DNA of 64,000 nucleotides, taken from the NCBI GenBank assembly GCA_030737835.1, contig CM060855.1, forward strand, positions 1,365,599 through 1,429,598, read 5' to 3'. Positions 12,221 to 63,862 of the stretch are shown here, one piece after another. Each line of letters opens with the position of its first letter. Position 1 is the stretch's first letter. This DNA is from Acorus gramineus. Lineage: Eukaryota > Streptophyta > Magnoliopsida > Acorales > Acoraceae. A model generated the notes under the pieces. It worked only from the letters and a program-made list of their open reading frames with translations. It was not told where the DNA came from and searched no databases. A program made the translations under genes and the position numbers.

Positions 12221-15033
12221 TGTTACGCCCCGAAGCGGCCATCCCTGGATTGTAGCATTATATAAATATCAGGTGATCAATACAAGAGGTCAATAATGAC
12301 TCCAAGGGATACATCGATGATCCAACATATGACATATCTGGTTTAACAAAGCAATAATAATAGATAGCTTATCAGAAAGTGCGGAAGCGTAAAATGACAT
12401 AAATTTGTAATCCAAAGTAATATTACAAATCCAATTAACACAATTATTGTCCCGTGAGAGCCAAGTCTAGTCAAAATCAATTAAAAATAACGACATGTGC
12501 ATCAAGTATGAATACCATAACATACAGGTAAGAGGAATGCTGACAGCCTCACGCTCGCAGAACCAAAAGACCGGACGCTGCAACAACTACTGGAATCCCA
12601 CCTCACGGAGCTCCTCCTTCAAGATCAACTCAGCCCCTGGTGGAGGAACAATACACGAGGGGTGAGCTATAAGCTCAGTGAATGGTAAGAAGCCACACAC
12701 CGCATCTATATCACATCAATAAAACAATAATAGTTCCAACCAAGACATGGAATAACCTACAATAACAGAACATCATGCAATGACGTGCCCTCACTGTGCC
12801 CTCACTCTTGCCCATAGGGATGTCAAGAGACTTTTGGGAGAAATCAATACGCTAATGCCCTACATCATCCGGTAGCCCTCTTCCAGGTAGCCCTCTTCCT
12901 GGCGGCCTTCCAACATCATGGCAGCACCACGCAGGAAAGCTTCGACGCTGGACAGCTTCAATGCACGATGATGTGTAAAAGAAACACTCTACTCTCACAA
13001 TATAACCCTTATGAATCCTCCACTATCGGTTAGTCATTACTGATACGCTATCGAATTCTCATGAATTCCTATAAAGTTGCATCTCTCGGATGCGGGAAGA
13101 TTAACTATATTCACAACTGAATAATGTCCTAGCATGACCCCAAAGGCGGGTCCTACACACACCTATAACTGATAGGAAAAGTTTAGTATTCAAGCATTTA
13201 GTTTAACATTCCATAATATATCAAAGCTAAGTATGGAACCATATAAACTTAATGATAAATAGCATAGCACATATTTAACTAATCGTGGAGCAAATTCAAT
13301 ATACGAATCTCCTATGGCATACCATATTCAATGATATTAAATACATAAAATACAATATCATGCTAGCATTAGATGTATAAAAATATGGTTATTTATGCAT
13401 GTATTATGGTGGACAAACAAGTAATGGGTACGGATATAAATTGTCTACGCAAAATATAAATTATAAATATATATGGTATGCGTTATCTAACATGGTAAGT
13501 TATAATCCTAATAATACGTCCATTATACAAATACTACATAACTACGGCGCTCTTAGATTACACAGAGCACGGCTACGTGTATTACGCGCTTCCTAAGTGG
13601 GTGGATCGAACCACTCACCGTTACCCGGATCGTCGCGAGTTCTGTCAACGAAAGCTGCAAAACACAATCAATGATGCTCAATTAAAATATGAAGTCTCCT
13701 GACACACATACAAGCAAACTTCATGAAGACACTAACTCTTGATGGTTCTCACATCATGCATAATAGCTCTTTGACACACAATCAAGTAAAACTGGTACAT
13801 CTACTACAACTAGCACTAAACTTTAATCTCCACAGCACCAAATACACATCCAATAATTCTAAAATAAATTATACACATTCTTTGACATGTTAGGATCATA
13901 ATCTGGGAAGACATCATAATCTGATTTGGCCTTTACATGGCTGAAATAAAATATTTCCAGAAACTAGTCATTTCCTACTCGAATCTGAACAGTCCATGCA
14001 AATCAGGTTCTAACTTACAACACAGATAATATTATGATACCAAATTTCATATATAGAATCTATACATATGGATGATCATATCATATGAAGACACAATCCT
14101 AAACATATGTCTCTAAGTACTAGTTTCACAAGGATTGTTACAGAACAGAAATCTGCCATATTATAACACAAAACTCCAAACAACAAGAAAATGGGAAAAA
14201 CACATACAACAACACCTATGCATCCTTGCTGACCATCTAAAGCACTAGATAACAACACTCATACTTCATTGAAGCATAAACACAAACACTTACATGACAC
14301 AAAGGGGAAACAAACATACCATGAGAAGAAGAGGGGAAAAGGATGCACACAAGGGATTCCACCACCACCACCACCACCACCACAAGCAATCAATCCATCA
14401 CACATTCATAGCCATTACCACCACTAGATCAACACCCTCACATAAGTCAAAACAAACAGTGAGGTTAAAAGAATGACATGGAGAAGAAGAGGGAGGTGGG
14501 GGGAAATACAAGGCTCACACACATACTCACCATCCTTTTCACTCTTCCTTCATTTTCTTCTCTTCATCTTCACTTGCACCACCAAAAATCACACACAAAG
14601 GGGGCTGTCCTAAAGAGAATGAAAGGGGGAGAGAGAGATTAAACTCAATTTAGGGTTTTGAGTGTGAGATGGGGGCAAAAGAGGTACAAATGTGCTTGGT
14701 GTGATGAGATAAGGAGGGGGGTATACTTAGCCTTACACTCACCTCTAATAGAGACATTAGGAACCAAAGGTTAGAGAATGGGGTGATACTTGCCTAGAGT
14801 CACCACCCACCCAATCAAACAACCAACCAAAACCCAGTAATAGCTAAACACGGATACCATTTAGAACAGTATAATTTTTAAAACGATGTCAGAACGCGAT
14901 GAAAATTTACAGGTAAGTCAAAGCAGATACTAGGATCACCGATATGCGGTTATATTTTTAAATAAAGCGCCTGAACTCTAAAAAGAAATAAAAAAATGAT
15001 ATTTAATTACTCAAGAGTGACACAAACATAACA
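12221..15033 (-). mobile_element. Old solo-LTR-like fossil, antisense (copy A)
   Basis: Read on the minus strand it starts TGTTATGTTTGTGTCAC and ends GGGGCGTAACA, a TGT...ACA LTR-type pair. It is flanked by GAAAC (12216-12220) and GAAAG (15034-15038), close to a 5-bp target repeat. The order of motifs matches the young elements at 35925, 44166 and 60673: donor-like GGTATG, long intron-like stretch, TTTTGCAG acceptor, a 36-nt block ending at GTGAGT, TGAGCTTATAGCTCACCCC, GAGGAGCTCC, TTGGCTCTCACGGGAC. It has no protein domains and no GC-rich tract. It is probably a solo LTR of an LTR retrotransposon, broken, and older than the duplication because both copies have it. Confidence 0.65.
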
Positions 15034-23500: not shown

Positions 23501-23982
23501 TTTTTGCTTCTTTTAATATATTTCTTTCAAATTTTAAATTTAAATATAAAAATTATTATTATGATCAATATGTATTTGAAATATTAAAATTTGAATATTT
23601 TAAATTTGACTATCATTAAAACCAATTTTTTATTTTCTTAAGATCCATCTTTGTAGGTGTTTTGATAATTTAATGTTATCATGATATTTATATTAAATAA
23701 AATTCCGTAAAATTGGATTAGATTTGTTAATGGATTGAATAAATTTTTTTTTTTATAAAATCATATTTTATGATGTAAATGTAGTTTGTGAGATAAAATC
23801 TATGATAAAATCTATCACATTACAAATATGATAAGATTTGTTTATGGATATAAGATTTATAATAAATTTTAAGGGGTAAAATTGGCTAAAATGTTTCCCC
23901 TTGAACTCTTACTTTTTATAGTAGTATAGATATAGATATAGATATACATATATTGATATATAATTGTGAATGTTATACCACG

Positions 23983-24537
23983 TAGGGGTGCAACTTGGGC
24001 GGGTTGAACCCGACCCAACCCGGTTCATGGGCGGGTTTGGGTTGAGGTTTTTCTCTGCTGGGTTCAACCCGACCCGAACCCGAACTAACCCGAACCCAAT
24101 TCGGGTCGGGTTTGGGTTGGGGGGTCGGGTTACGCGGGCTCAACCCGAACCCGAATTGGTAAATGTTTTTTTTTATATTTTTGTTGAAAAACGATGAAGT
24201 TATGTTTAGCTTATTTAAAATTTAGAATATGTATTCATAAACTATTTGGATTTTGTAAGTTTTTTTTGTGGTGAATATACATTTAATTAATTAGAGTTTA
24301 TTGTGTTGTTTATTAAATAATTTTTATGATATTTTAAGTATTAAACCCGAACCCGACCCGAGCCCAACCCGAGCCCGAATTCAACCCGAACCCGACCCGA
24401 ACCCGCGGGTTGAGGTCGGGTTCGGGTTGAACCCTTCGGGTTGAGGTCGGGTTCGGGTTCGGGTTGGACTCTGTGCAATGTGGGTTAAAGCCAAAACCGA
24501 CCCGAACCCGACCCAACCCGCCCGAGTTGCACCCCTA
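23983..24537. mobile_element. hAT-type MITE, young, present only in copy A
   Basis: The ends TAGGGGTGCAACTTGGGCGG and CCGCCCGAGTTGCACCCCTA are inverted, and a perfect 8-bp target repeat ATACCACG (23975-23982 and 24538-24545) flanks the 555-bp element. The interior is non-coding, full of GGGTTCGGGTT-like strings and their complements. Copy B at the matching place (near 52132-52150) has the uninterrupted GTTATACCACGTGCTTTG, an empty site. It inserted exactly in the hairpin of a Helitron-like 3' end. Confidence 0.93.
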
Positions 24538-24540
24538 ATA

Positions 24541-24571
24541 CCACGTGCTTTGACGCGTGTAAGATAACTAG
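24541..24571 (+). other. Helitron-like 3' end, inner (copy A)
   Basis: An imperfect hairpin (CACGTGCTTTGACGCGTG, counting the CACG of the downstream hAT target repeat) is followed about ten bases later by CTAG, then T. A short hairpin 10-12 bases before CTRR with a following T is the Helitron 3' signature. No matching TC 5' end could be fixed and no Rep/helicase is present. Copy B: CTAG at 52166-52169. Confidence 0.4.
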
Positions 24572-25099
24572 TTACTTATTAAAAGGATTTTGACTCAGTA
24601 TTTTCATTCCCTTTTTTTATCTTTTAAACATATCCTTAAATTTTTTTTATTAATTACTAATATATCTATTTATTTAAATTTTAAAATATATAATGAATAA
24701 ATATATAATAGATATATCCATTACTTATCTATTTCTATTACTTATCCATTACTTATTACTTACATAAAAGGATTATGACCCAGTCTTTTTATTTCCTTTT
24801 TTATCCTTTAAACAGTTGATTAATTAGTAATATATTTATTTATTTAAATTTAAAAATATATAATAGATAAATACATAATAGATATATCTATTACTTACTT
24901 ATTATAATGATTCTGGCCCAGTATTTTCATTTCTTTTTTTATCCTTTAAACAATTAATTAATTATTAATATATCTATTTATAGATAAGATTTATTTATGG
25001 ATAAAATTGGCTAAAATGTTTTCCCTCGAACTCGTACTTTTTATAGTAGTATAGATATAGATATAGATATATTGATATATAATTGAGAATGTTATACCA

Positions 25100-25127
25100 A
25101 GTGCTTTGGCACGTGTAAGATAACTAG
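25100..25127 (+). other. Helitron-like 3' end, outer (copy A)
   Basis: GTGCTTTGGCAC forms a clean four-base-pair stem with a TTTG loop, followed by GTGTAAGATAA and CTAG|T. It resembles the inner end at 24571 in sequence and spacing, as if one Helitron-like element were nested in another of the same family. Copy B: CTAG at 52723-52726. Confidence 0.42.
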
Positions 25128-25156
25128 TATATATGTATAAAAGATACACACACATA

Positions 25157-25157
25157 T
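25157..25157. other. Junction of the tandem duplication
   Basis: Copy A ends CACACATA (25149-25156), one extra T follows, and copy B starts GGGGGACTTC (25158). Outside the duplication, CACACATA is followed by GCATTAG (52756 on) and GGGGGACTTC is preceded by TATAAAA (3144-3150). The junction is thus almost blunt with a single unexplained base. GTATAAAAG occurs at both original breakpoints (3143-3151 and 25135-25143). Confidence 0.85.
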
Positions 25158-26033
25158 GGGGGACTTCATCTCCCCCTCAAGGTATGCAAGCACTCTCTCT
25201 CTCCCCTACTCAGACTCAAGAACTCAAAGTTCTCCCTCTTCTTCTCACAAGGAGGCAACTGACTTGAGCGTCGGAGGGGCGTTAGCTGGCACCACACTGG
25301 TGTGAGTTTCAGGTACCTGAAGGTCGAAGGAGGAGGAGGAGGAGGAGGAAGAAGACGACGACGACGGGCATCAAAAGGCTTGCCACGCGACGCTGTGAAG
25401 AAAGGTTGGCATCAACATCATCTTGGATCTACAACAAAAGCCCGGATCGGTGAAGATCCGGCCCAGGAGGGGAGGACTTGATTTCACCCTCCACAAATTG
25501 GCACCGTCTCTGGGACACGAGCGAGAAGCCGTTCCTAACTTCAATCTGAAAAGATGGTGTTGATGAGAACTCGATCGATGATTCAAGGACAAGACGGAAA
25601 AGGCAGTCGCACAACACTTCACAAAACCCGACGCCGGAGGCGGACCGCAACTTCGCTAAGGAGCTCGAAGAGATGAACCAACGGTATCATCACCTCGAGA
25701 ATCTGATGGAGGAGTTCCTAAAGCGGAAGGAGGCCACGCCCCCACCACCTCCTCCTAAGGTGCGAAACCAGCAAAACCGGATCCAGACGAATGCCGAACC
25801 GCGGGATCAGGATTGGCAAAGTCGGTGAGCTAATGTCAGAAGTCACGAGTCAGTGTATTCGTCCGGCGGAAGGCACCAGCATCAGGAAAATGGATCTGAT
25901 TCACCAGCTTTTCCTACTACAGAGAACCGGGCTAGGCCCAACAAGGAGGAACATCATGGCCGCTCCACGCGTCGGGAACCGAGGAGCAAGCGCGCGCCGC
26001 CTCAACAACCGCCTAGACGAGGATAGAAATTAA
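25158..26033 (+). mobile_element. Ty3/gypsy LTR and gag-leader fossil (copy B)
   Basis: This is the duplicate of 3151-4026: CT-rich LTR leader, LTR end, the primer-binding-site-like TGGCACCGTCTCTGGGA around 25499, and gag-like start at about 25554. It lacks the LTR upstream part because the duplication boundary lies just inside the LTR. It is a broken fossil. Confidence 0.7.
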
Positions 26034-34260: not shown

Positions 34261-35924
34261 TGTTACGCCCCGAAGCGGCCGTCCTTGGATTGTAGCATTA
34301 TATAAATATCAGGTGATCAATACAAGAGGTCAATAATGACTCCAAGGGATACATCGATGATCCAACATATGACATATCTGGTTTAACAAAGCAATAATAA
34401 TAGATAGCTTATCAGAAAGTGCGGAAACGTAAAATGACATAAATTTGTAATCCAAAGTAATATTACAGATCCAATTAACACAATTATTGTCCCGTGAGAG
34501 CCAAGTCTAGTCAAAATCAACTAAAAATAACGACATGTGCATCAAGCATGAATACCATAACATACAGGTAAGAGGAATGCTGACAGCCTCACGCTCGCAG
34601 AACCAAAAGACCGGACGCTGCAACAACTACTGGAATCCCACCTCACGGAGCTCCTCCTTCAAGATCAACTCAGCCCCTGGTGGAGGAACAATACACGAGG
34701 GGTGAGCTATAAGCTCAGTGAATGGTAAGAAGCCACACACCGCATCTATATCACATCAATAAAACAATAATAGTTCCAACCAAGACATGGAATAACCTAC
34801 AATAACAGAACATCATGCAATGACGTGCCCTCACTCTTGCCCATAGGGATGTCAAGAGACTTTTGAGAGAAATCAATACGCTAATGCCCTACATCATCCG
34901 GTAGCCCTCTTCCAGGTAGCCCTCTTCCTGGCGGCCTTCCAACATCATGGCAGCACCACGCAGGAAAAGCTTCGACGCTGGACAGCTTCAACGCACGATG
35001 ATGTGTAAAAGTAACACTCTACTCTCACAATATAACCCTTATGAATCCTCCACTATCGGTTAGTCATTACTGATACGCTATCGAATTCTCATGAATTCCT
35101 ATAAAGTTGCATCTCTCGGATGCGGGAAGATTAACTATATTCACAACTGAATAATGTCCTAGCATGACCCCAAAGGCGGGTCCTACACACACCTATAACT
35201 GATAGGAAAAGTTTAGTATTCAAGCATTTAGTTTAACATTCCATAATATATCAAAGCTAAGTATGGAACCATATAAACTTAATGATAAATAGCATAGCAT
35301 ATATTTAACTAATCGTGGAGCAAATTCAATATACGAATCTCCTATGGCATACCATATTCAATGATATTAAATACATAAAATACAATATCATGCTAGCATT
35401 AGATGTATAAAAATATGGTTATTTATGCATGTATTATGGTGGACAAACAAGTAATGGGTACGGATATAAATTGTCTACGCAAAATACAAATTATAAATAT
35501 ATATGGTATGCGTTATCTAACATGGTAAGTTATAATCCTAATAATACGTCCATTATACAAATACTACATAACTACGGCGCTCTTAGATTACACAGAGCAC
35601 GGCTACGTGTATTACGCGCTTCCTAAGTGGGTGGATCGAACCACTCACCGTTACCCGGATCGTCGCGAGTTCTGTCAACGAAAGCTGCAAAACACAATCA
35701 ATGATGCTCAATTAAAATATGAAGTCTCCTGACACACATACAAGCAAACTTCATGAAGACACTAACTCTTGATGGTTCTCACATCATGCATAATAGCTCT
35801 TTGACACACAATCAAGTAAAACTGGTACATCTACTACAACTAGCACTAAACTTTAATCTCCACAGCACCAAATACACATCCAATAATTCTAAAATAAATT
35901 ATACACATTCTTTGACATGTTAGG

Positions 35925-38900
35925 TGTTATATATGTGTCACTTTTAGCCTTATGGTAACCATTGGAGCATTCTGGTAGTTTTTGAGTTTTTTTCGTTTTT
36001 CGATCGGAACCGCTAAAATTTTGGACTGTTAGCTATCGTCCTGTGTTTGAGAACTCCGATTGAAAATCTAACTGCATATTATGTGTCCTGGTGCCATTCC
36101 AAGCCACTCACGAAAATTTCATCGAATTCCGGTACGTTTCAGAATTTCACAGTTCCGGGGCGTATCCGGGTTTTGACCGAGCGAGAAGTCATTGGGAGAG
36201 TTGACTCGGTCAAAGTGGGCCCATGACTTGGTCAACCCTTTTTGTTTTTTTGTGTGGTTGAGTTGACCTAAGTCAAAACTCACTTAAACCTAATTAATCA
36301 AGCCTTAATCCTAGTTAACCCTAATCTAAGTGTGTTGACTTATTTAAGTGAATCTAAAAATTAGCCCCCCACTATTCATCATCTTCTCCATTTGATTTTC
36401 TCTCTCCCCCTCTCTCTTTTTCTTGATTTTAAGCTAGTTAGAGTGCTTGAAATAAAAAACACAAAGAATAGAAAGGTTAGATCTTGTCCCGATCTATCTA
36501 CGGGTGGTCTCGGATTCGAGTTCCCTCGTGTTTAGCCCCTTCTCACACCCTCTTTTCTCCTCTGATTTCAGCCCCTTTGAAGGTTGAAAGAGAGCTTGGT
36601 GGTGGAGGTCTTTGGGGAGGTGTTTCGGTGCACGAAGAGCTCCCGGTTCCCTTCCTTTCCTTTCCTTTCCTTGGGTAAGCTCTCTTTCCTTCCTTTTCTT
36701 GTTTAGATGCATGTTAGGGGGTGTTTTTGGGTGTGTGGTGGCTGTTGGTGGCTGTTGGTGGTGGTTGGTGGTGGTTAGTGGCCATTGGTGGCCGGTGAGG
36801 GGTGGTAGGGTGGCTCGGGCAGGGTGGTTGGCTGTCTCGGGCAGGATGGCAGCACAGGCGCAGCAGGCAGCGCAGCAGGCGGAGCAGTTGGCAGGGCGCG
36901 CGCGCGCGTGCGCGTGGACGTGCGCGCGGGCGTGCGCTCGGGTGGAGCTGGAGGGCGTGCTGGGCGCGTGTGCTGGGCGCTGGTGCTGGGCGCGGGTGCT
37001 GGGCGCTGGGCGCGGGTGCTGGGCGCGTGTGCTGGGCGCGGGTGCTGGGCGCTGGGCGCGGGTGCTGGGCTCTGGGCGATGGTCGCGGGTGCTGGGTGAT
37101 GGTCGCGGGTGCTGGGCGCTGGGGCGTTGGGCACCGTGCGGGAGCGTGCGCGCGGAGCGCTGCGCAGAGGCGCAGGCGTGCTGTGCGCGCGCGGTGAGGC
37201 GAGGCCGGTGGTGCGCGCGGGGTGAGGCGCTGGGGCGCAGGGCGTGCGGGTGTGCGCGCGGGTTGCTGCGCTGGGGCGCAGTGAGCGCGCGGTGCACCCG
37301 GGGTGATTCGGCAGGGTGTCCGGGCGTGCGGGCTGAGCTCGGCAGGGCGCCTGGGGGCGCGGGCCGGGGCTCGGCTGTGCGCCCGGGGCGGGTGGCCGTG
37401 CGAGCGGCTGCCCGGGGGTGCGGGAGTGAGTCGGGGTGCTCGGGCTAGCGTGCGTACGGGCCGTATGTACGTTTGCCCGAGTGTTGGGTATTTTTAGTGT
37501 ATTTTTGGTGTATTTGTGTATTTTACTCACCAAGTTGATTACCCTGTCTTGCAGATCTTGACGGACGGTCGCGCGACGACCCGGTTATTGGTGAGTGGGA
37601 CAACCCAACCCAGTTGGGAGGCGCTATATGCACTTGGGCGTATACCGTCCTCCCCTGGGGCAGCATAGTTAATATTAACTTGTTATATGTAATCCATGCA
37701 AGCATGATTAGTGTGTAGAATGCATGCCACCCTAGACTTGTATGTTAGGGACTTGCACCCTTAGGATATGTGTAAGAGCCGTGCATCCTGTCACCTTGTT
37801 ATCATGCTAGGAAAGCCTCGACCTATGCATGCGTCCTATTAGTTTGATTTATTAAATTAAATGCAGACTTAAGATATTTTTAGCATGCCTTGGGGAATAT
37901 TAAGGGGGCCTTGCGAGGTCAACATTGAGACCCGGGCTAGGGTACTCCGTGTTCCTTGTTTGGTTGGCGGGATGTCCTATATCGGGACCTCAGGTTGCCC
38001 TCCCAAGGTTTCTTTTCCTCATTATTATCTTATGTATTCCCCGCATCTTGGTTATGCGCGCTGGAGGAATTCTGAAGAATTCAAGACATTAGAGTTGTTG
38101 AGATGTGTTGTCGGCGGATCCGAGTGGATCATATGCGTATGGATAGGCTGTTCTGTTCCCTTCGTTGGATCCGTGTAGAGACTGCCTCAGCGTTAGAAAG
38201 GTCGTCCCGTGCAGGGGCTCCCATCAGTAGGCACCTCCTGATTTGGGACGGACAGTGCTGAATGTGGGAGTGGCCAAACGACCTACGGAGTGGAGGAGAG
38301 ACTATCGGTGGACCAAGGGTGACCAACAGCCTAGTCAGTCCCAAGATCCTATGTCACCATATTGAGGGGTGAGGGTGAGGGTGTGGTGGGCCGGCGATGT
38401 GGCGACCCACTGGATTTGTGTAAGGTTGATTATCAGCCTATTAAGTCCCAACATCCTATGTCACCTATTGAGGGGTGAGGGTGAGGGTATGGTGGTTCGG
38501 CGATGTAGCGACCCACTGGATTTGTGTTGATTATGCCACTTTGAGGCTTTTGCTATTAATTGTGGTTAATATAAATTGTGATGCATGGGTTGTGCTATTC
38601 ACTGAGCGTGTGGCTCACCCCTCGCATAATTATTTTCTTCAGTGATTACCGAGGCGGACTTGAAGGAGGAGCTCCCCGAGCGACTGCACCAGTAGCGGAG
38701 TAGCGCCACGTCCCTCGAGTTTCAGAGGCCATCAGCATCCTTTTGATTGTATGTATATATTTCCGTGCTTGGGCACCCAGTTGTGTATTATTTGGATGTA
38801 TGTGTGTATATTGGCTCTCACAGGACATTTGATTATGTATCGAGTCTGTAGTATGTTTTTGGATTACAGACTCAGTCTTTTAGCTTCCGCTATCTGTGTA

Positions 38901-39056
38901 TATATCATGTCAGCCTTGCTTTCATCTGTGTTGTTGTCATTTTAGTTGTTGTTTAGAGTGATTTATTGATCTCCTGTATAGACTGCTGATATCATGTATA
39001 CACTTGCCGCGTCCCGGGGACGGCCATCCCGGGGACGGCCGCCCTGGGGCGTGACA
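35925..39056 (+). mobile_element. Young solo-LTR-like element 1 (copy B only)
   Basis: This 3,132-bp element starts TGTTATATATGTGTCAC and ends GGGGCGTGACA, flanked by TGTTAGG on both sides (35918-35924, 39057-39063). Copy A has the empty site at about 13890-13905. Internal order: U3-like part; CT-rich leader (36395-36420); donor-like GGTAAGC at 36674; G+C-extreme tract 36840-37440; acceptor TTGCAG ending 37554; a 36-nt block ending at GTGAGT (about 37591); a conserved GGATCCGAGTGGATCATATG segment; two ~118-bp tandem units (38340-38530); TGAGC/GCTCA hairpin at about 38603; and TTGGCTCTCACAGGAC. No gag or pol domains and no internal LTR pair, so a solo LTR is most likely. It inserted after the duplication. 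Confidence 0.75.
36675..37554 (+). other. Predicted intron with hypervariable GC tract in LTR-like element 1
   Basis: It is bounded by GTAAGC and TTGCAG, with TTTTCTTGTTTAG near 36700 as another possible acceptor. Most of the interval is GCGCGGGTGCTGGGCGCT-like low-complexity sequence, G-rich on the plus strand. Equivalent positions in the other young copies are 44755-45705 and from 61428 to about 62340. The old antisense copy has an AT-rich interval in the same place. Splicing is inferred from sequence only. Confidence 0.45.
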
Positions 39057-40202
39057 TGTTAGGATCATAATCTGGGAAGACATCATAATCTGATTTGGCC
39101 TTTACATGGCTGAAATAAAATATTTCCAGAAACTAGTCATTTCCTACTCGAATCTGAACAGTCCATGCAAATCAGGTTCTAACTTACAACACAGATAATA
39201 TTATGATACCAAATTTCATATATAGAATCTATACATATGGATGATCATATCATATGATGACACAATCCTAAAAATATGTCTCTAAGTACTAGTTTTACAA
39301 GGATTGTTACAGAACAGAAATCTGTCATATTATAACACAAAACTCCAAACAACAAGAAAATGGGAAAAACACATACAACAACACCTATGCATCCTTGCTG
39401 ACCATCTAAAGCACTAGATAACAACACTCATACTTCATTGAAGCATAAACACAAACACTTACATGACACAAAGGGGAAACAAACATACCATGAGAAGAAG
39501 AGGGGAAAAGGATGCACACAAGGGATTCCACCACCACCACCACCACCACCACAAGCAATCAATCCATCACACATTCATAGCCATTACCACCACTAGATCA
39601 ACACCCTCACATAAGTCAAAACAAATAGTGAGGTTAAAAGAATGACATGGAGAAGAAGAGGGAGGTGGGGGGAAATACAAGGCTCACACACATACTCACC
39701 ATCCTTTTCACTCTTCCTTCATTTTCTTCTCTTCATCTTCACTTGCACCACCAAAAATCACACACAAAGGGGGCTGTCCTAAAGAGAATGAAAGGGGGAG
39801 AGAGAGATTAAACTCAATTTAGGGTTTTGAGTGTGAGATGGGGGCAAAAGAGGTACAAATGTGCTTGGTGTGATGAGATAAGGAGGGGGGTATACTTAGC
39901 CTTACACTCACCTCTAATAGAGACATTAGGAACCAAAGGTTAGAGAATGGGGTGATACTTGCCTAGAGTCACCACCCACCCAATCAAACAACCAACCAAA
40001 ACCCAGTAACAGCTAAACACGGATACCATTTATAACTATATAATTTTTAAAACGATGTCAGAACGCGATGAAAATTTACAGGTAAGTCAAAGCAGATACT
40101 AGGATCACCGATATGCGGTTATATTTTTAAATAAAGCGCCTGAACTCTAAAAAGAAATAAAAAAATGATATTTAATTACTCAAAAGTGACACAAACATAA
40201 CA

Positions 40203-43636: not shown

Positions 43637-46600
43637 ACAGAGAGTTGGTTGCAGGTCTAGAGCTTGTATCATGCAATCCCGGATGGGCACCATTGTTTGA
43701 CGTCCCATATCGGGATTCCCTAGTTGAGAAGCACATTAGTCATTTTTTAGCGATTATAGTGCCCGAGATGGCTCGGGTGGTTTCAGGGGTGGGCCAGGGG
43801 ATGTGGGCCGGATTGCTTCAGACACGGAGGGTCCCCTCTATGGGCTTGTGGTCCGTTTACCTCTGGGAGTTTCAGGTGATGAGTTTTATGGGCCGTGTTC
43901 TCTGGGCCCGGGGTGGTCGTGGACATGGTGGGACAGGGACCAATCTACGGGGGAGGACTTATTTCATGCGGTTCTGGATTCTCCACCTTGGCGTACTGTG
44001 GTGGGGTATCGTGCTGGCTAACAGCCTCTCCAGTCATCCTCTCCCCCTTTGGTGGTGATACGAGAGGGGGAGAGGGTTAGTTCGGGCTCTGCTCCTCCCC
44101 CGACGACGGTGAGGGTGGGGGAGCAGGCATGTTCGGTTCCCTTCACACCTCGTAGGGGATCTCTCTGTTATATATGTGTCACTTTTTAGCCTGCTGGTAA
44201 TCGTTGGAGCGTTCTGGTGGTTTTTCGTTTTTTTTCGGTTTTCGATCGGAACCGCTAATTTTTGGACTGTTAGCTATCGTCATGAGTTAGAGGACTCCGA
44301 TTGAAAATCTAACTGCATATTTGGTGTCCTGGTGCCATTTTAGACCTCTCACAAAAATTTCATCGAATTCCGGCAACGTTTCCGAAATTTCGCAGTTCCG
44401 GGGCGTATCTGGGTTTTTAAGTCGCTCGCTATATAAAGGTGGGATCTAATTTTCGGATTACTATTCATCATCCCTACCAACTTGATTTTCTCTCTCCCCT
44501 CTCTCCTTTTCTCACTTTTGAGCCCCCTAGACCCCTCAAAGCTTAAAACCTAAAGCATAGGAAGTGTAGATCGGGTCCCGATCTACACTCCGGTGCTTTC
44601 AAATCCGGATTCCGGCGAGATTTGCCCCTCCGTCCCCCCTCTCTTCTCCTCTGTTTTGGGCTGTTTTGGAGGTGGGAGTAGATCCGGGCGGTGGAAGCCT
44701 TTGGGGAAAGGTTTCGGCGCGCGGAGAGCGTCCGGACTTCCCTTCCTCCCCTTGGTAAGCCCTATTTCCCCTCTTTTCTTGCTTAGATGGATGTTAGGAG
44801 GTGGGTTTTGGGGTTGGGAGGCGGTCGGCGGCGGTGGGTGGCCGTCGGAGGGCAGTGGAGGTGGTCGGAGTCCTTGGGGTGGTCGGAAGTGGGTGGTAGA
44901 GGAGCTCGGGCTGGCAGGCTGGCAGCCCCGGGCAGCAGGCAGCAGCACAGGCGCAGCAGCTGGCAGGGGCGCGCGCGCGCGCGCGCGGGTGGCGCTGGGC
45001 GCAAGGCGCGGGTGCTGGGCGCTGGCGGGCGCAGTCGGGCGCGCAGTCGCGCGCGGGTGCGCGGGTTCGCGCGGAGCGGGCGCGCGGGTGCGCGGGTTCG
45101 CGCGGAGCGGGCGCGCGGGTGCGCTGGTGCGCGCGGGTGCTGGCGCGAGCGGGGGTGTGCGCGGGAGTGCGCGCGGGTGCGCACGGGCGCGCGCGGGCGT
45201 GCGCGCGAGCGTGCGCGCGCGCGGGCAGAGCGCCTGGGCACTGTGCCTGGGTGCTGGGCAGGGCGCCTGGGCATGCGCCTGGGCGCGGTGCTGGGGACCA
45301 GTGCACGCGGTGCTGGGGACCAGTGCGTGCGCGTGCTGGGGCGTGCGTGCAGTGCGCGCGGGGGCGCGCTGGGCTGGACGCGAGGTGCGCGCGGGCGCGC
45401 GCGAGCGTGCGCGTGCGTGCGGCGGTGCGTCGGGGCGCGCGGGGAGGCGTGCGACAGTGCGCCGGTGGTGTCCGGGTGTGCGGGCTGGGCTCGGCAGTGC
45501 GCCTTGGCGCGCGGGCCGGGGCTCGGCGGTGCGCCCGAGGCGGGTGGCCGTGCGTGCGGTTGCCCGGTGGGCTCGGGAGTGAGTCGGGATGCTCGGATAC
45601 GCGTGCGTACGGGCCGTATGTACGTTTGTCCGAGTGTTGGGTATTTTAGATGTATTTTTGTGTATTTATGTATTGTTCTCACCATATTGAATGTCTGTCT
45701 TGCAGATCTAGACGGACGGTCGCGCGACGACCCCGATCTCTGGTGAGTGGGACAATCCAACCCAGTAGAGAGGTGTTATACGCACTTGGGCGTATACCGA
45801 CCTCTCCTGGGGCACCATGGATAGATATTGGCATGTGTATATGTATATCATGCGAGCATGATTTAATTGTAGAATGCATGTTACCCTAGACTTTGCATGT
45901 TAGGGACTTGCACCCATAGGATATGTGTATGAGCCATGCAGCATGTCCCCTGTTTCCATGTTAGGAAGCCCGACCGATGCATGTGCCCTACTAGTTTATT
46001 TATTAAATTAAATGCTAGTATTTGTTAAAATGCATGTTATAGTGAATATTATAGGGGAGGGGCCTTGCGAGGACAGCGGTGAGACCCGGGTTAGGGTACA
46101 CCGTGTTCCTTGTTTGGTTGTCGGGGTGTCCTATAACGGGAACTCACGCTGCCCTCCCGAGTTTCTTTCCCCCAATGATATTCCACCCTTGTTATAACCT
46201 TATGCATGTTCCCCGCATCTTAGTTATGCGCCCTGGTGGGTTCTGAGGAATTCAGAACATTAGTGTTGTTATGACGTGTTGTCTGCGGATCCGAGTGGAT
46301 CATATGCGATGGATAGGCTGTTCTGTTCCCTTCGTTGGATCCGTGTAGTACAGCCCCGGCGTTGGAAAGGTCGTCCCGTGCAGGGGCTCCCATCAGTAGG
46401 CGCCTCCTGATTTCGGAAGGACTGCGCTGAATGTGGGAGTGGCCAAGCGACCTACGGAGTGGGGAGAGACTATCGGTGGACCAAGGGCGACCAACAGCCT
46501 AGTCAGTCCCAAGAGCCTAGGTCACCTGTTGAGGGTGAGGGTGAGGGTATGGTGGGCCGGCGATGTGGCGACCCACTGGATTGTTAGTCCCAATATCCTA

Positions 46601-48727
46601 TGTCACCCATTGTAGCGGTAGCGACCCACTAGTTTGCGGAATTGTTATCATTTGTGGCTTAAGTAATATGAATTGTGGATTATAAAGATATCTGGTTGTG
46701 GTCAATATTGTCTGTGATGCATGGGTTGTGCCGTTCACTGAGCGTGTGGCTCACCCCTCGCATAATATTTTTCTTCAGTGTCATCTGAGTCGGATCTGGA
46801 GGAGGAGCTCCCCGAGGGATTTCATCAGTAGCGGAGTAGCGCCACGTCCCGCGAGTTTCAGAGGCTATCAGCATCCCTTGTGCCAGTATGTATTATTTTC
46901 CGTGCTTGGGCACGCGTTTGGTTGTATTTGGATGTCTTTGTATGTATATTGGCTCTCACAGGACATGTGATTATGTATGGAGTCTGTAGTGTGTTTTGAT
47001 TACAGATTCAGTCTTTAGTTATCCGCATTTGGTGTATATATCATGTCAGCCTCTTTGTTGTCTGTGTGTCATTCTGGTTGCTTGTGTATGATATATTATT
47101 GACCTCCTGTGTAGATTCTGATATTTTATATACACTTGCCGCGTACCGGGGACGCCCGGGGCGTGACACTCTCTCCCCACCCCCTCCCGGAGGGTTGCGT
47201 CGCTAACCCAGTCAGATCTGGGTCCATCTCAGCGTTGGAGCCCAATGGCTGTGGATCCCCTTACTTGGTCAAGGACTAAATGTGTGGGCATCCGACTCCG
47301 TGTTCGGGAGGAGCGGGCGTTCTTCAACTCTTTCCTCAAGGAGACTTTCGTGCCTAGGGGAGCTTTTGGTTGTAATCTCCTCTGTCCAAAGGCGACGGTG
47401 ATTTCCCTTGAGGCGGAGCCATCCAGTGAATCAAGGAGTTCAGCCGAAGGGCCCAGTAGTGACTCATGCTGAGCTTTCTATCATAGAACATCCGGGGTCT
47501 TCACAACCCGCGAAGCAAGCGGCGGTGAAGGAGTTCAGGTGTGTTGTCTTCAAGAAACAAAGATGGCGGTGGTCGATTCTCGGTTGCTCCGCTCCTTTGG
47601 AGGGGGTGTGTTTGATGAGATAGCATTCAGGTGTGCGGAAGGCAGCTCTGGGGGGGGGGGGGTCATCCTCAGGTGGGATTCTTGGTTTTGGAAGGGGATC
47701 AACTAGGTGGTAGGAAGGTTCTTAGTGTTTGTCCTATTAGAGTGCGTATCTACTTCAAAAAGGTGGATTTGCTCAGGGGTCTACGGACCTCATGTGGAAG
47801 TAGAAAGAGCTAGTTTTTGGGAGGAGCTGTCGGAGGTGCGTCGGAGATGGCCCTCCCCGTGGTGCGTGGCTGGGGACTTTAATGTCACCTGGTTCAGGTC
47901 AGACTGTAACCGCCCGCCTTGGGGACTTCTCTTTGGTGATGATACGCTTCAATGATTGGATAGAGGTAGAGGGGTTGATCGATATGCAGGTGCTGGGAGT
48001 GAAATTTACGTGGAGAAATTTGCGCGTGAAACCCCCTCTTGCGCGCTTGGACCGCATCTTAGTTGATGATGATTGGGACGGCGAATTCCCAGGCGAGGAG
48101 GTGGTGAGCCTGTCCAGGTCAGTCTCTGATCATTCCCCATTGTTGTTTTCTGTTCGCAGGTGACCAGGTAGAAGGCGCCACTTTAAATTTGAATCTTGGT
48201 GGACTGAGTGGGAGGGGTTGGACGATGTAGTACGAGCATCTTGGGAAGGTAGTGTGGGGGACCATCTCGGTGCTCGTCGTATTGCTTTTAAATTGCGAAG
48301 ATTGAAGCGGGTTCTAAAAGCACGGGGTAGGGAGGCATCGCTTGGGTATTGGGCATAAAAACAAGCCTGTCTTGACTGTATTGATCGTTAGGACAGGGCT
48401 GAGGAGATCAGCCCATTGTCGGCAAAGGTTCGGGCTGCAAGGAAGGCATGCAAGGAGAGGTTGGCAGAACTACTCCGTATGGAGGATAAAGAATGACGCC
48501 AAAAGTCTAAGGCGCTGTGGTTGAGGCTTGGGGACAACAACACCAAATTCTTTCATAAGACGACTTCCATTCGCTGAAGGGTTAACAACATTCGCAGCTT
48601 GGTGGTTGATGGCATCCACATTGAAGAGGAGGGGGAGCTTCAGTCGAAGGTGGTGGTTTATTTTAAATAGGAGTTCTCTTCTTGGAGGTTTTAAAGCAGG
48701 GAGGACGAGCACCTATGCCCTCCCATA
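43637..48727 (+). mobile_element. LINE fragment with endonuclease domain, split at 44166-47168 (copy B)
   Basis: Duplicate of 18500-20576 in two parts, 43637-44165 and 47169-48727. The endonuclease motifs GDFNV (about 47873), PPLARLDRILV and SDHSPLLF (about 48125) are present, as is the stop in place of Trp in S-x-NIRGL. It is cut off at the same place before the RT core. Confidence 0.8.
44166..47168 (+). mobile_element. Young solo-LTR-like element 2 (copy B only)
   Basis: This 3,003-bp element starts TGTTATATATGTGTCAC and ends GGGGCGTGACA, with a 5-bp target repeat CTCTC (44161-44165, 47169-47173). Copy A has the empty site at 19023. TATATAAAGG near 44431 could be its TATA box. It has the same internal order as element 1: CT-rich leader, GGTAAGC (44754), GC tract (about 44900-45600), TTGCAG ending 45705, exon-like block, GTGAGT, GGATCCGAGTGGATCATATG, and hairpin near 46738. 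TG...CA ends with a 5-bp target repeat support an LTR origin. It inserted into the LINE after the duplication. Confidence 0.78.
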
Positions 48728-51700
48728 AATTTATCCGCCCATAAATTTATTAATTACTTATATACTATTTATTCAAATTTAAGATTTCAAATTAGATTTA
48801 GATAATCTTAAATATATTTTAAATTTTTAATATCAGATTTAAGTAAATCATATATAAGATTAAAATTTTAATAATTCAAAATTAAAGATATTCATTAAAT
48901 CTATCTTTAGCAAAAAGATATTTATTAAATCTATCTTTAGCAAAAATTTATCTTTTAATAGAAAATATCTATTATTTATCATACATTTATCTATTACTTA
49001 CTTATTAAAAGAATTCTGTGACCCAGTATTTTGATTTCCCTTTTTATCCAATAAATAGTTAATTAATTATTAATATATCTATTTATTAAAATTTTAAAAT
49101 TTTAAAATATATAATGGATAAATACATGATATGTATATCTATTACTTACTTATTAAAAGGATTCTGACCCAGTATTTTGATTTCCCTTTTTATCTTTTAA
49201 ATAGTTAATCATTTACTAATATGTATAATGGATAAATACATGATGAATATATTTATTACTCACTTATTAAAAGGATTCTGAACCAGTATTTTGATTTCCC
49301 TTTTTATCTTTTAAATAATTAATCAATTACTAATATATCTATTTATTTAAATTTTAAAATATATAATGGATAAATACATGATAGATATACATGTCTATTA
49401 CTTACTTATTAAAAGAATTCTATGACCCAGTATTTTGATTTCCCTTTTTATCATTTAAATATTTAATTAATTACTAATATATCTATTTATTTAAATTTTA
49501 AAATTTTAAAATATATAATGGATAAATACATGATAGATATATCTATTACTTACTTATTAAAATGATTTTGACCCGGTATTTTGATTTCCCTTTTTATCTT
49601 TTAAATAGTTAATTAATTACTAATATATATAATGGATAAATACATGATGAATATATCTATTACTCACTTATTAAAAGAATTCTGATCCAGTATTTTGATT
49701 TCCCTTTTTATCTTTTAAATAATTAATCAATTACTAATGTATCTATTTGTTTAAATTTTAAAATATATAATGGATAAATACATGATAGACATACATGGAT
49801 TATAATAAATGAAGAAGATTAAAATTAATTAAATAAGCGTATAGATATGATAGTTGGTTTTCACTTTTCATATATTTTTAATTTAAATTTAAAATATATA
49901 ATGGATATGTTAAATCAATTTATTTTTCTTAAGCCTACTAACATTCGATGTATTTTTTTAAATAAATAAATTATAATTGAAATTAATTAAAAGTCATTTA
50001 GATATTCTTTAACAATAAAGTATTTGATAAGATCAAATGATATATTATTTTTAGGGATTCAAATATATTTGCGATGGTTCAAATATAATTTTCATTTTTA
50101 TCTTTTATTTTTGGTTTTCAAAAAATTCGAGATCTAGGATTACTTTGGTCACCCTTTATTTTTGTTTTATATGTATGATCTATTTAAATTTAAAAAAGTT
50201 AAAGCTGATTAATCACAATCTCATCTTCATCCATGGGTTTTTAAAAAGTCCTCCCCAAAATCCTCCACAAAGAACCGCAAAATCCTCCATAAAAATGTAT
50301 ACCCGACTACCTCAAACTCCATACACTCCCTTTTTCATTTGATGATCAACCTAGCTAAAAATAATTTTTTTTTTGTTTATAATATTTTAATTTTTTTAAT
50401 TTTGGGTTGATGATTTATTTCTTGTTTTTAATATTTTTCTCAATGAATATTTTAGGTTTTTCATCTTTCATTTTAATTGTATTTTTTTACTATAACATGT
50501 GAATTGATTCATTCATTATGGAGAAAAGAGTCCTCTCCAACATGAAATCGAGGTAAAAAAAAAAAAGGAACCTAGAATTAGTTTTTATATGTTTTCATCA
50601 TGTAATTAATTATTTTTGTGGATTAGTAATTTTTTTTGGTAAACAAAATAGATATGCTCAATCAATTTCCTTTGAATTCATAATCTATGCCTTTTTTGAA
50701 ATCTAATTAGATAGGTAATAGGTTTTACATGATTTTATATGTATGTATTATTTTTGTAGAGGGTCGCTTTTTTAACATGATTCATCCATTCATGGATAAT
50801 TTGATAAGATTTGTTGATTCACGGATAAAATTTTATTAATTTGAAAGCATAGTGACATATTAGATATATATTAATATTCATATTGTATGTTTAATTAATG
50901 CATAAAATGTAATAGTGCACTAATTAGCATCTTTTATTGTTTTTTTAATTAATCTGACAATATTAATCCATAAAGGGTTTTTATATATAATATTAATCTG
51001 TATTATAATATATTAAGCTCCTAAAATGTTAATTTTTATTAATTTTTAGATGTCAAATCGGCTAAAATGTTTCCCCATCAGCTCGTACTTTTTACAGTAG
51101 TATAGATATAGATATACATATATTTTGAATTTCTAAAAATAAAAAATTAGTTATTATACCTATTATATATATCTTTTATAGATTAAATGATTATTACTTT
51201 TTTTTATAGACATAAATAATTTTTGTTTCTTTTAATATATTTCTTTCAAATTTTAAATTTAAATATAAAAATTATTATTATGATTTATATGTATTTTAAA
51301 TATTACAATTTGAATATTTTAAATTTGACTATCATTAAAACAAAATTTTTAGTTTCTTAAGATCCATCTTTATAGGTATTTTGATAATTTAATGTTATTA
51401 TGATATTTATATTAAATAAAATTCCGTAAAATTGGATTAGATTTTTTAATGGATTGAATAAATTTTTTTTATTTATAAAATCATATTTTATGATGTAAAT
51501 GTAGTTTGTGAGATAAAATCTATCACATTACAAATATAGATAGGATTTGTTTATGGATATAAGATTTATAATTAATTTTAAGGGGTAAAATTGGCTAAAA
51601 TGTTTTCCCTCAAACTCGTACTTTTTATAGTAGTATAGATTTTTTTATAAAAATAAATATTTTTTTGCTTCTTTTAATATATTTCTTTCAAATTTTAAAT

Positions 51701-52755
51701 TTAAATATGAAAATTATTATTATGATCAATATGTATTTGAAATATTAAAATTTGAATATTTTAAATTTGACTATCATTAAAACCAATTTTTTATTTTCTT
51801 AAGATCCATCTTTGTAGGTGTTTTGATAATTTAATGTTATTATGATATTTATATTAAATAAAATTCCGTAAAATTGGATTAGATTTGTTAATGGATTGAA
51901 TAAATTTTTTTTTTATAAAATCATAGTTTATGATGTAAATATAGTTTGTGAGATAAAATCTATGATAAAATCTATCACATTACAAATATAGATCAGATTT
52001 GTTTATGGATATAAGATTTATAATAAATTTTAAGGGGTAAAATTGGCTAAAATGTTTCCCCTTGAACTCTTACTTTTTATAGTAGTATAGATATAGATAT
52101 AGATATACATATATTGATATATAATTGTGAATGTTATACCACGTGCTTTGACGCGTGTAAGATAACTAGTTACTTATTAAAAGGATTTTGACTCAGTATT
52201 TTCATTCCCTTTTTTTATCTTTTAAACATATCCTTAAATTTTTTTTATTAATTACTAATATATCTATTTATTTAAATTTTAAAATATATAATGGATAAAT
52301 ATATAATAGATATATCCATTACTTATCTATTTCTATTACTTATCCATTACTTATTACTTACATAAAAGGATTATGACCCAGTCTTTTTTATTTCCTTTTT
52401 TATCCTTTAAACAGTTGATTAATTAGTAATATATTTATTTATTTAAATTTTAAAATATATAATAGATAAATACATAATAGATATATCTATTACTTACTTA
52501 TTATAATGATTCTGACCCAGTATTTTCATTTCTTTTTTTATCCTTTAAACAATTAATTAATTATTAATATATCTATTTATAGATAAGATTTGTTTATGGA
52601 TAAAATTGGCTAAAATGTTTTCCCTCGAACTCGTACTTTTTATAGTAGTATAGATATAGATATAGATATATTGATATATAATTGAGAATGTTATACCAAG
52701 TGCTTTGGCACGTATAAGATAACTAGTATATATGTATAAAAGATACACACACATA
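48728..52755. repeat. AT-rich satellite-like block with Helitron-like ends (copy B)
   Basis: Duplicate of 20577-25156 without the hAT MITE. The CCAGTATTTT monomers lie at 49022, 49168, 49282, 49426, 49572 and 49686 (spacings 146, 114, 144, 146, 114), giving a 404-bp higher-order unit repeated twice. The ~0.45 kb AT repeat pair lies at about 51200-52085. Helitron-like CTAG ends are at 52169 and 52726. Confidence 0.75.
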
Positions 52756-60672: not shown

Positions 60673-63600
60673 TGTTATATATGTGTCACTTTTAACCTTC
60701 TGGTAACCGTTGGACCATTCTGGCAGTTTTTTGATTTTTTTCGTTTTTCGATCGGAACCGCTAAAATTTCGGGCTGTTAGCTGTCGCCCTGAGATTGAGG
60801 GCTCCGATTGAAAATCTGACTGCATATTATGTGTCCTGGTGCCATTTAAGCCACTCATGAAAATTTCATCGAATTCCGGCAACGTTTCCAAAATTTCACA
60901 GTTCCGGGGCGTATCCGGGTTTTTACCGAGCGAGAAGTCATTGGGAGAGTTGACTCGGTCAAAGTGGGCCCATGACTTGGTCAACCCTTTTTGTTTTTTT
61001 GTGTGGTTGGGTTGACCCAAGTCAAAGGCCACTTAACTCACCTAATCTAGCCCTTAAGCCTAATTAATCTTGATTAGCCCTAATTCAAGTGAGGTTTGAC
61101 TTATTTAAAGTGAGCTAAAAAGGTTGCACTACACTATTCATCATCTTCCCAAATGCATTTTCTCTCTCCCCCTCTCTCCTTTTCTTAGATTTGAGCCCCT
61201 TGGAGTGCTTGAACCTTAAAACCCAAAACATAGAAAGGATAGATCCGGTCCCGATCTACACCCCGGTGTTTTCGGATTCGAATTCCGGCGAGTCTTGCCC
61301 TTTCTCCCGCCCTCTCTTCTCCTCAGATCTGAGCCCTTTCGGAGGTGGGAAGAGGTCTTGGTGGTGGAGACCCTTGGAGAGGCGTTTCGGTGCGCGGAGA
61401 GCAACCGAACTTCCCTTCCTTCCCTTGGTAAGCTCCTTTTCCTTCTTTTTTTGGCTTAGATGCTTGTTAGGAGGGTGGTTTTGAGGTTGGGTGGTGGTCG
61501 GCGGCTGTGGGTGGCTGTTGGTGGTGGTTGGGAGGCGGTCGGAGGCCATTGGTGGCCGGTGGTTGGTGGTAGAGGTGCTCGGACAGGTTGGTGGTCTGTC
61601 CCGGGTAGGATGGCAGCGGGCGCAACAGGCAGCGCATCAGGTGGCCGGGCGCGCGAGCGCGTGCGCGCGGGCGTGCAGGGGGCGTGCTGGGCGCGCTGGG
61701 TAGGCTGGCAGCGCTGGCATGTAGGATGGCTGGCGGGGCAGGCGGGCAGTGCTCAGGCAGCAGGCGAGCGGTGCTAGGGCCACTCGGCGATGCGCGCAGG
61801 CAGGCAGCGCGGGCAAGCGGCGCGGAGGCTGGCAGGCGCGCTGGGCGCGTGTTGCCGAGCGTGCGCGTGGACGCTGGGTGAGGGTGCTGGGCGCTGGGCG
61901 TGCTGGGCGTGCCGGATGTGCTGAGCGCGCGTGCGAGGGCGCTGCGCTGGGGCGCAGTGCGCGCGGGTGCCCGGGGCGGGGGCTGGTCGAGGGGATGATG
62001 CGAGCGGGTGGTGCGCGCGGAGCGAGGCGATGGGCGCGGGGCGTGCGGTGTGCGCGCGGGCTGCTGCGCTGGGGCGCAGCAAGCGCGCGGTGCACCCGGG
62101 GAGCTCGGCGGCGTGTCCTGGCATGCGGGCAGGGGCGCTTGGGTGCGCGGGCTGGGGCGCGGCGGTGCATCCAGGGGCGGGTGGCCGTGCGGGTGGTTGC
62201 CAGGGGTGCGGGAGTGAGTCGGGGTGCTCGGGCTAGCGTGCCTACGGGTCGTATGTACGTTTGCCCGAGTTTTGGGTATTTTTAGTGTATTTTTGATGTG
62301 TTTGTGGATTTTACTCACCAAGTCGATACCCTGTCTTGCACGTCTTGACGGACGGTCGCGCGACGACCCGATCTCCAGTGAGTTGGAAGATCCAACCCAG
62401 TAGGGAGGCGTTACATGCACTTGGGCGTGTACCGTCCTCCCCTGGGGCACCATAGTAAATATTAACCTGCTTAATATGAAAACTATGTAAGCATGATAAT
62501 CTGTAGTATGCATGCCACCCTAGATTTGTATGCTAGGGACTTATACCCTTAGGACCCGTATAAGAACCATGCGCCCTGTTATCATGTTTCCATGCTAGGA
62601 AAGCCCCGACCGATGCATGTTCCCATTTAGTTTAATTTATTTAAATAAAATGCGAGCATGTGATTATTAGCCTGTCTTAGTGAATATTATAGGGGAGGGG
62701 CCTCGCGAGGACAGCGGTGAGACCTGGGCTAGGGTACTCCGTGTTCCTTGTTTGGTTGTCGGGATGTCCTATATCGGGACCTCACGCTGCCCTCCCAAGG
62801 ATTCTTTCCCCGTTAATATTCCAACCTCTTTATTATTATAATGCATGTTTCCCCGCATCCTGGTTATGCGCCCTGTTGGAATTCTGAAGAATTCAAGGCA
62901 TTAGAGTTGTAGAGATGTGTGGTCGGCGGATCCGAGTGGATCATATGCGTATGGATAGGCTGTTCTGTTTCCCTTCGTTGGATCCGTGTAGAGACTGCCC
63001 CAGCGTTAGAAAGGCCGTCCCTTCCGAGGGCTCCCATCAGTAGGCGCCTCCCGATATTTGTGACGGACTGTGCTGAAGTGTGGGTGAAGGCCAAGCGGCC
63101 TACGGAGTGGAGGAGAGACTATCGGTGGACCAAGGGTGACCAACAGCCTAGTCAGTCCCAATATCCTATGTCACCCATAGAGGGGTGAGGGTGAGGGTGT
63201 GGTGGGTCAGCAATGAGGTGACCCGCTGGTTTGTGGAATTGTGGTCTAAGGATGATTATTAGATTAGTATGTCCCAATATCCTATGTCACCTATTGAGGG
63301 GTGAGGGTGAGGGTGTGGTGGTTCGGCGATGTACGAACCACTGGATTTATGATGTTATGCCACTTTGAGGCTGGTTGTTGTTTAATTGTGGTTAATATAG
63401 CTGTGATGCATGGGTTGTGCTGTTCACTGAGCGTGTGGCTCACCCCTCGCATAATTGTTTTCTCCAGTTGCCACTGAGCCGGATCAGCAGGAGGAGCCTT
63501 CCGAGGGATTCCTTCAGTAGCGGAGCAGCGCTACGTCCCGCGAGTGTTAGAGGCTATCAGCATCCCTTTTTGGCTGTATGTATTTTATTTCCGTGCTTGA

Positions 63601-63862
63601 GCACGCGTTTGTATATATTCAGTTGTATATTGTGTATATTGGCTCTCACAGGACAAATGATTGTGTATCGAGTCTGTAGTATGTTTTATTTACAGATTCA
63701 GTCTTTCGCTTCCGCATTTGGTGTATATATCATGTCAGCCTCTTTGTTGTCTGTGTGTCATTCTAGTTGCTTGTTTATGGTATATTATTGACCCCATGTG
63801 TAGATTCTGATATTATATATACACTTGCCGCGTCACGGGGACGGCCGCCCTGGGGCGTGACA
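60673..63862 (+). mobile_element. Young solo-LTR-like element 3, inside the right TIR
   Basis: This 3,190-bp element starts TGTTATATATGTGTCAC and ends GGGGCGTGACA, flanked by ATTTT (60668-60672) and CTTTT (63863-63867), a near-identical 5-bp repeat. Its internal order matches elements 1 and 2: CT-rich leader (61160-61190), GGTAAGC at 61427, GC-rich tract 61610-62230, a CTGTCTTGC / GACGGACGGTCGCGCGACGA block near 62345, GGATCCGAGTGGATCATATG near 62928, two tandem GGGGTGAGGGTGAGGGTG units (63182, 63298), and hairpin near 63427. No gag or pol. It split the TIR between its two 97-bp tandem units, so it postdates the Mutator-like element. Confidence 0.78.

Follow-up and report, generated by a model that had tools for sequence, protein, structure and literature searches.

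In a window of 64,000 nucleotides of the Acorus gramineus genome (C9:1365599-1429598), three solo long terminal repeats (LTRs), E1, E2 and E3, belong to a Ty3/Gypsy retrotransposon whose 5′ leader is, in all likelihood, a spliced pre-mRNA: its first intron would be taken out, and the spliced RNA would have been reverse transcribed more than once. Related LTRs from which this intron is missing exactly are found repeatedly in the genome, and the arrangement of exons and introns is common to several families. Both LTRs of such an element are rebuilt from RNA at transposition, and introns inside them are something of a paradox, since each transposition risks erasing them. How, then, are they kept? 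E1 is laid out as follows, in window coordinates:

35925..39056, plus strand: E1, solo LTR (TG...CA), flanked on both sides by TGTTAGG and inserted in the second copy of an old antisense element
36369..36674, plus strand: exon 1; putative start, with the motif ACTATTCATCATC common to E copies; end placed from the genomic junctions of relatives
36675..37554, plus strand: intron 1, 880 nt and GC-rich, with GT...AG ends; E1 retains it whole, and relatives lack it exactly
37555..37590, plus strand: micro-exon, 36 nt, with GTGAGT from 37591
37591..38642, plus strand: putative intron 2, GTGAGT...TTCTTCAG, 1052 nt
37609..37659, plus strand: hairpin, probably conserved, shortly after the second donor and within putative intron 2
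38643..38748, plus strand: putative exon 3 (106 nt, purine-rich in its core), then GTATGT

A first-pass annotation of the window had placed the splice signals of E1 at 36674/36675 and 37554, with the block between 37555 and 37590 and GTGAGT from 37591, and these coordinates are correct to the base. It had also proposed that the LTR transcript is spliced with a tiny internal exon. For intron 1 this is supported by 28 genomic junctions on more than one background, whereas use of the second donor, for which no intron-2-less copy is seen, is suggested by conserved signals. To that description are now added the genomic copies without intron 1 and a further conserved acceptor, exon and donor (38643-38748, then GTATGT).

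Genomic LTRs without intron 1

If spliced RNA is copied back into DNA, the genome should hold LTRs that lack the intron exactly. The genome searched comprises 398,581,865 bases and is that of a plant by its content. A junction pattern of 26 bases, which joins the end of exon 1 (in one spelling) to the start of the block and allows up to 3 mismatches, finds exact junctions, and imprecise deletions fall outside its count. It matched 28 genomic places where intron 1 is gone from GT to AG, and its reversed control matched none. A comparison pattern of 27 bases, made of the acceptor and the first 17 block bases and also read with up to 3 mismatches, matched 11,392 places in the 398.6-Mb genome (reversed control, 0), which shows that the signals occur beyond chance. 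The copies without intron 1 thus represent roughly 0.25% of the total, as far as two unequally permissive patterns can be compared. Twenty-two of the 28 junction copies were read, and each of them has exon 1 directly against the block with no intron-end bases in between, as the search itself selects; in 21 of them the block measures 36 nt and is followed by GTGAG. In E1, where the intron is intact, it runs from GTAAGC to TGTCTTGCAG, ends that resemble the U2-type donor and acceptor consensus. Precise removal, as expected of a spliceosomal intron, is seen for intron 1 only, on several backgrounds, and splicing followed by reverse transcription appears by far the best account of these LTRs.

One of the intronless copies, L073, is a 3′ LTR: the end of an integrase gene and a purine tract are followed by an LTR that matches E1 and E3 on either side of the missing intron, apart from some 60 bases missing from the alignment around LTR base 147 and minor differences in the part that would be intron 2. 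On the same strand, 7,136 bp upstream of this junction, a second one stands at C59:1321370. It is probably the partner LTR, itself intronless, since this distance is the usual spacing of about 8,020 bp less one intron. Other intron-1-less junctions are paired on one strand only about 5.1 kb apart (C2:7693219/7698342, C78:713386/718474 and C54:738885/744000), and possibly represent a shorter, perhaps non-autonomous, intronless family.

The usual spacing comes from three cases in which the E-type 5′ part recurs on one strand, 7,985, 8,022 and 8,047 bp apart, and it is because of these pairs that the E-type elements are understood as LTRs around about 5 kb. Primer-site and purine-tract sequences adjoining the homologous ends also speak for LTRs: in L069, the inside of one such pair, a primer-binding-site-like sequence directly follows the LTR, and a purine-rich tract directly precedes the next. 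On the LTR strand, L069 encodes gag, protease, reverse transcriptase (RT), RNase H and integrase (Pfam), the last four in that order and with protease and RT in one open frame. Paired LTRs in direct orientation around gag-pol are those of a Ty3/Gypsy element. The element is probably a chromovirus; near the end of the integrase (residues 399-443 of 446), Pfam Chromo matches with 20 bits (E 6.5e-4), short of its curated cut-off of 25.1. It may be of the Tekay/Del lineage, to judge by its structure, with an iMet-type primer site and a long LTR.

A probable leader arrangement common to several families

The same order of signals is present in the other E-type LTRs of the window and in an older, related family, O. 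E1, E2 and E3 are 3.0-3.2 kb long, have TG...CA ends and lie on the plus strand; the old antisense element, O1, shows TTTTGCAG, the block (13654-13619) and GTGAGTGG in that order, just as the first-pass annotation had described. The further features are:

44166..47168, plus strand: E2, solo LTR with a CTCTC target duplication
44755..45705, plus strand: E2 intron 1
45706..45742, plus strand: E2 micro-exon, 37 nt
46779..46885, plus strand: E2 putative exon 3
60673..63862, plus strand: E3, solo LTR with flanks ATTTT / CTTTT
61428..62341, plus strand: E3 intron 1, acceptor AG mutated to AC
62342..62377, plus strand: E3 micro-exon, 36 nt
63468..63575, plus strand: E3 putative exon 3
12221..15033, minus strand: O1, an old LTR (TG...CA) from a related family, 2.8 kb
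13655..14530, minus strand: O1 putative intron 1, donor GTGAGT; other donors possible
13619..13654, minus strand: O1 micro-exon, 36 nt
12526..12636, minus strand: O1 putative exon 3, then GTATGT
35649..35684, minus strand: micro-exon of O2, a second copy of O1 that E1 interrupts

The shared signals claimed for E1-E3 hold for the block, which measures 36, 37 and 36 nt respectively, but not for the acceptor of E3. In a loosely matched E set of 61 rows (22 intronless copies, 2 that are actually F-family copies and 37 intron-containing E rows), the block before GTGAG is 36 nt long in 59 rows and 37 nt in one, E2, and the donor is lost in one; the acceptor AG is retained in 36 of the 37 intron-containing rows. 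In a further family, F, the 36 nt and the following GTGAG are found in 19 of 20 fetched copies. When E1, O1 and one F copy (L071) are aligned, the middle of the E1 intron cannot be aligned to that of F or O (0.38 and 0.32), whereas F and O are 0.78 identical. The E intron is GC-rich and laden with repeats (window 36750-37450), while those of F and O are AT-rich; the body of the E intron thus seems to have been replaced and its ends kept. Two stretches are kept between families, the eight bases that begin with the second donor (0.88-1.0) and the 72 that lead up to the next acceptor (0.69-0.85); of the block, the length and a CGCGACGAYCC core are kept.

Downstream of the micro-exon, introns 2 and 3 are inferred from conserved signals only. 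L071 and most of the E and O copies that were read share the second acceptor (38642/38643 in E1), an exon of about 106 nt and the GTATGT donor; in the G-family copies seen, the acceptor region is present and GTATGT is not. An acceptor-like site, TAG/GTTGCT, precedes the gag AUG in all three internal starts seen (L069, L013 and L055). The putative leader exons of E1, E2 and E3 contain 0, 0 and 1 ATG against 3.0, 3.2 and 2.9 expected from dinucleotide shuffles, whereas their second introns hold 28, 32 and 32, at expectation. In the E1 LTR, intron 1, intron 2 and the tail together account for 41. A mononucleotide expectation (exon 1: 12 vs 109 in 30 copies) was set aside in favor of the dinucleotide control, as it overstates the depletion.

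A probably conserved hairpin occupies the stretch about 18-68 bases past the second donor; its stem sequence varies between E, F and G (and O, by eye), with the pairing maintained. A joint fold of E, F and G was dropped because the stems were misaligned, and the families were folded apart. The 40 distinct E sequences have 97.5% of their cells paired, where 200 shuffles reach 95.4% at most, and sliding the partners lowers pairing to 0.26-0.64 in E and 0.28-0.47 in F/G.

What might such a leader do? Transcription would start within the LTR, and intron 1 (36675-37554 in E1) would be removed at its GT...AG ends, joining exon 1 to the 36-nt micro-exon; this is the best supported step, and RNAs of E1 relatives spliced in this way would have been reverse transcribed more than once, giving LTRs without intron 1. 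Removal of intron 2 would next link the micro-exon to exon 3, and a further splice, spanning the primer-binding site, would link exon 3 to an acceptor located 9 nt ahead of the gag AUG. The resulting AUG-poor leader would serve translation, and the unspliced RNA would serve as genome. The hairpin, within intron 2, may mark RNA for packaging: if so, it would exclude intron-2-spliced RNA from particles, which would explain why 28 copies lack intron 1 and none was found to lack intron 2, the loss of the first being heritable and that of the second not. This picture of a retroviral-like leader, in which two or three introns are spliced and a packaging switch admits only RNA unspliced at intron 2, is put forward tentatively, and we would sooner doubt than assert it.

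Repeated absence of intron 1 and its possible origins

The number of losses was examined on a tree of 52 copies, 30 with and 22 without intron 1, built from about 300 bases upstream and 230 downstream of the junction. It needs 7 changes of intron state, 5 of them forced by well-supported branches; once a long-branched row is dropped (51 copies), 6 changes remain, 4 of them forced, and a single intronless clade is rejected by the approximately unbiased (AU) test (p 0.0003). The upstream part alone gives 5 changes, 4 forced (one clade rejected, p 3.6e-6), and the downstream part alone 8, of which 7 are forced (p 8.6e-102). Sampling is uneven: apart from E2 itself, the clade of E2 is represented by 17 intronless copies, the other intron-containing members having been left out of the sample. 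Three intronless copies, L072, L087 and L092, nest inside intron-containing clades. The nearest relative of L072 is intronless upstream of the junction and intron-containing downstream, and for L092 it is the reverse, so that a loss may have been spread by template switching; the copies closest to L087 contain the intron on both sides, and its loss looks independent.

Could a single event of splicing and reverse transcription, spread by template switching between co-packaged RNAs, then account for all of these copies? L072 and L092 are what it would produce, and one loss could have been carried to several backgrounds in this way, yet L087 and the rejection of one clade by each part of the alignment, with at least 4 and 7 forced changes, argue against it. 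We regard it as unlikely, though a chance to be reckoned with, and even then one splicing event remains. That the intronless LTRs are ancestral and the others gained a segment is far less credible, indeed most improbable. Trees alone give no direction, since their change counts cannot separate gain from loss, and the interior of the E1 intron is unrelated to that of F and O; however, intron 1 sits at one and the same position in the F copy and in O1, with alignable interiors, and for this reason the loss is probably the derived state and the intron ancestral. Matches to the intron-containing form vastly outnumber the 28 junctions, even if the patterns differ in permissiveness, and L072, L087 and L092 sit within intron-containing clades. 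A deletion of intron 1 as mere DNA, by recombination between short repeats, is very improbable. A short CTTG is indeed present at both junctions, but deletion between its copies would leave three extra bases, CAG, found in 0 of the 22 junctions read, all of them from a search for the exact junction, and the boundary is the same on several backgrounds, including L087 and L092, whose exon 1 ends TTGG.

A different proposal leaves splicing in place and has it serve a reading frame, the micro-exon and exon 3 encoding the end of a small protein. One frame is free of stops over the block in the compared copies; for each pair of families it shows 2.5-2.7 synonymous codon differences, where the remaining two frames show 0.4-1.4, and the distance from the start of exon 3 to a shared stop is 53 bases in E1 and 50 in O1, a difference of 3. 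Against this, no ATG lies between the last in-frame stop and the exon-1 donor in E1, E2, E3 or O1, the 37-nt block of E2 shifts the frame, and the G-family copies seen are, by eye, without the shared stop; eleven codons, moreover, have little power, and the family sets compared overlap. A protein-coding micro-exon was rejected on its weak frame signal and missing start codon, and we consider it quite improbable. The frame across the block (37555-37590) and putative exon 3 (38643-38695), open in E1, E3 and O1, may instead reflect splicing enhancers.

Splicing of intron 1, with reverse transcription of the product, is therefore preferred, but a number of observations weigh against a spliced leader as described here. 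All the evidence for splicing is genomic. A genome search for intron-2-less copies, with a pattern for 36-nt blocks and up to 2 mismatches, gave 0 matches, and a looser exact pattern gave 5: four still hold the donor GTGAGT, and the fifth (C3:13763734) is, by eye, unlike exon 3 beyond the pattern. Both patterns assume an E-type start of exon 3. The junction of exon 3 to gag was not found in the genome in one assumed spelling, nor was either O-family junction, again in one assumed spelling each. The acceptor AG, retained in 16 of 20 F copies, is lost in the other 4, and between families the whole micro-exon reaches an identity of only 0.58-0.64, a level that several other stretches of the LTR match or exceed. 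Among 28 O-family copies the splice dinucleotides are no better kept than background (donor 1, 22/24; acceptor 1, 27/28; donor 2, 25/28; acceptor 2, 22/26; donor 3, 24/26; background means, GT 0.915 and AG 0.869). The conservation of GT/AG and block length over copies, for which the first-pass annotation had asked, is thus seen between families for part of the signals, but within the O family the dinucleotides decay like their surroundings; such decay is expected of dead copies, so that the within-family comparison says little. The ATG deficit is small and significant in no single exon (54 of 500 shuffles are as low for E1 exon 1), its counts come from three related copies, and O1 fits less well, with ATGs just before its putative donor. 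As for the hairpin, pairing in F/G (96.5%, 23 sequences) equals the shuffle maximum of 96.5%, and changes on both sides of a pair (4 in E and 4 in F/G) are matched by the slid controls (up to 5 and 4), so that covariation is not proved.

The surroundings of E1 record its insertion. O2, at about 34261-40202, is split by E1 and belongs to a tandem segmental duplication of about 22 kb (window 3151-~16000 and 25158-~41000) with a spacing of 22,005-22,102, then 25,169 beyond E1. In the first copy the E1 site is empty, and the step from 22,030 to 25,169, or 3,139, fits a 3,132-base LTR plus the 7-base flank TGTTAGG, against the usual 5 bases. Elsewhere, the window contains a second pair of long direct repeats (19506-25085 and 47654-52684, spacing about 28,150, with internal repeated families) and a 154-nt inverted repeat, 95% complementary (57202-57355 and 59953-60106, 2,597 nt apart).

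Comparison with known retroelements

With over 11,000 acceptor-plus-block matches against 28 intronless junctions, genomic DNA alone can test how a retroelement separates its translated RNA from its copied RNA. The exons that such LTRs bring along, complete with splice sites, could also be spliced into neighboring genes. Retroviruses with a leader intron, or a donor inside the LTR, include human and simian immunodeficiency viruses (HIV-2/SIV) and human T-cell leukemia virus type 1 (HTLV-1), although nothing direct on retroviral leader introns was found in the open-access literature. For introns inside a plant LTR, no description was found in the open-access literature searched.

According to a 2025 review, plant LTR elements are generally without introns, with Ogre and EVADE as exceptions (PMC12786077). 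Ogre is likewise a plant Ty3/Gypsy element with a partly spliced transcript (PMC6317226; PMC12786077), but its intron lies between the protease and RT frames, whereas the introns here are upstream of gag. The Ty1/Copia elements BARE1 and EVADE, which make a spliced short-Gag RNA, resemble the model proposed here in giving spliced and unspliced RNAs different roles (PMC3735527; PMC12786077); their introns, however, are in the coding region, while intron 1 here is upstream of gag, and in this genome intron-1-less copies exist. CRR and Bagy2 are also plant Gypsy elements with spliced transcripts, but CRR splices out rt and elements of the Bagy2 group produce an env RNA, and the passage on them describes no LTR intron (PMC3735527). 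In sunflower, a direct-RNA study reports spliced isoforms of Tyran and Varan, and Tekay is absent from its expressed set (PMC7730604). A parallel to the proposed packaging step is offered by HIV type 1 (HIV-1). Here only the probable hairpin and the absence of intron-2-less copies would point to packaging, whereas HIV-1 has packaging sequences downstream of its donor; in both, the RNA element in question lies after a donor and would be missing from the spliced RNA (PMC516451).
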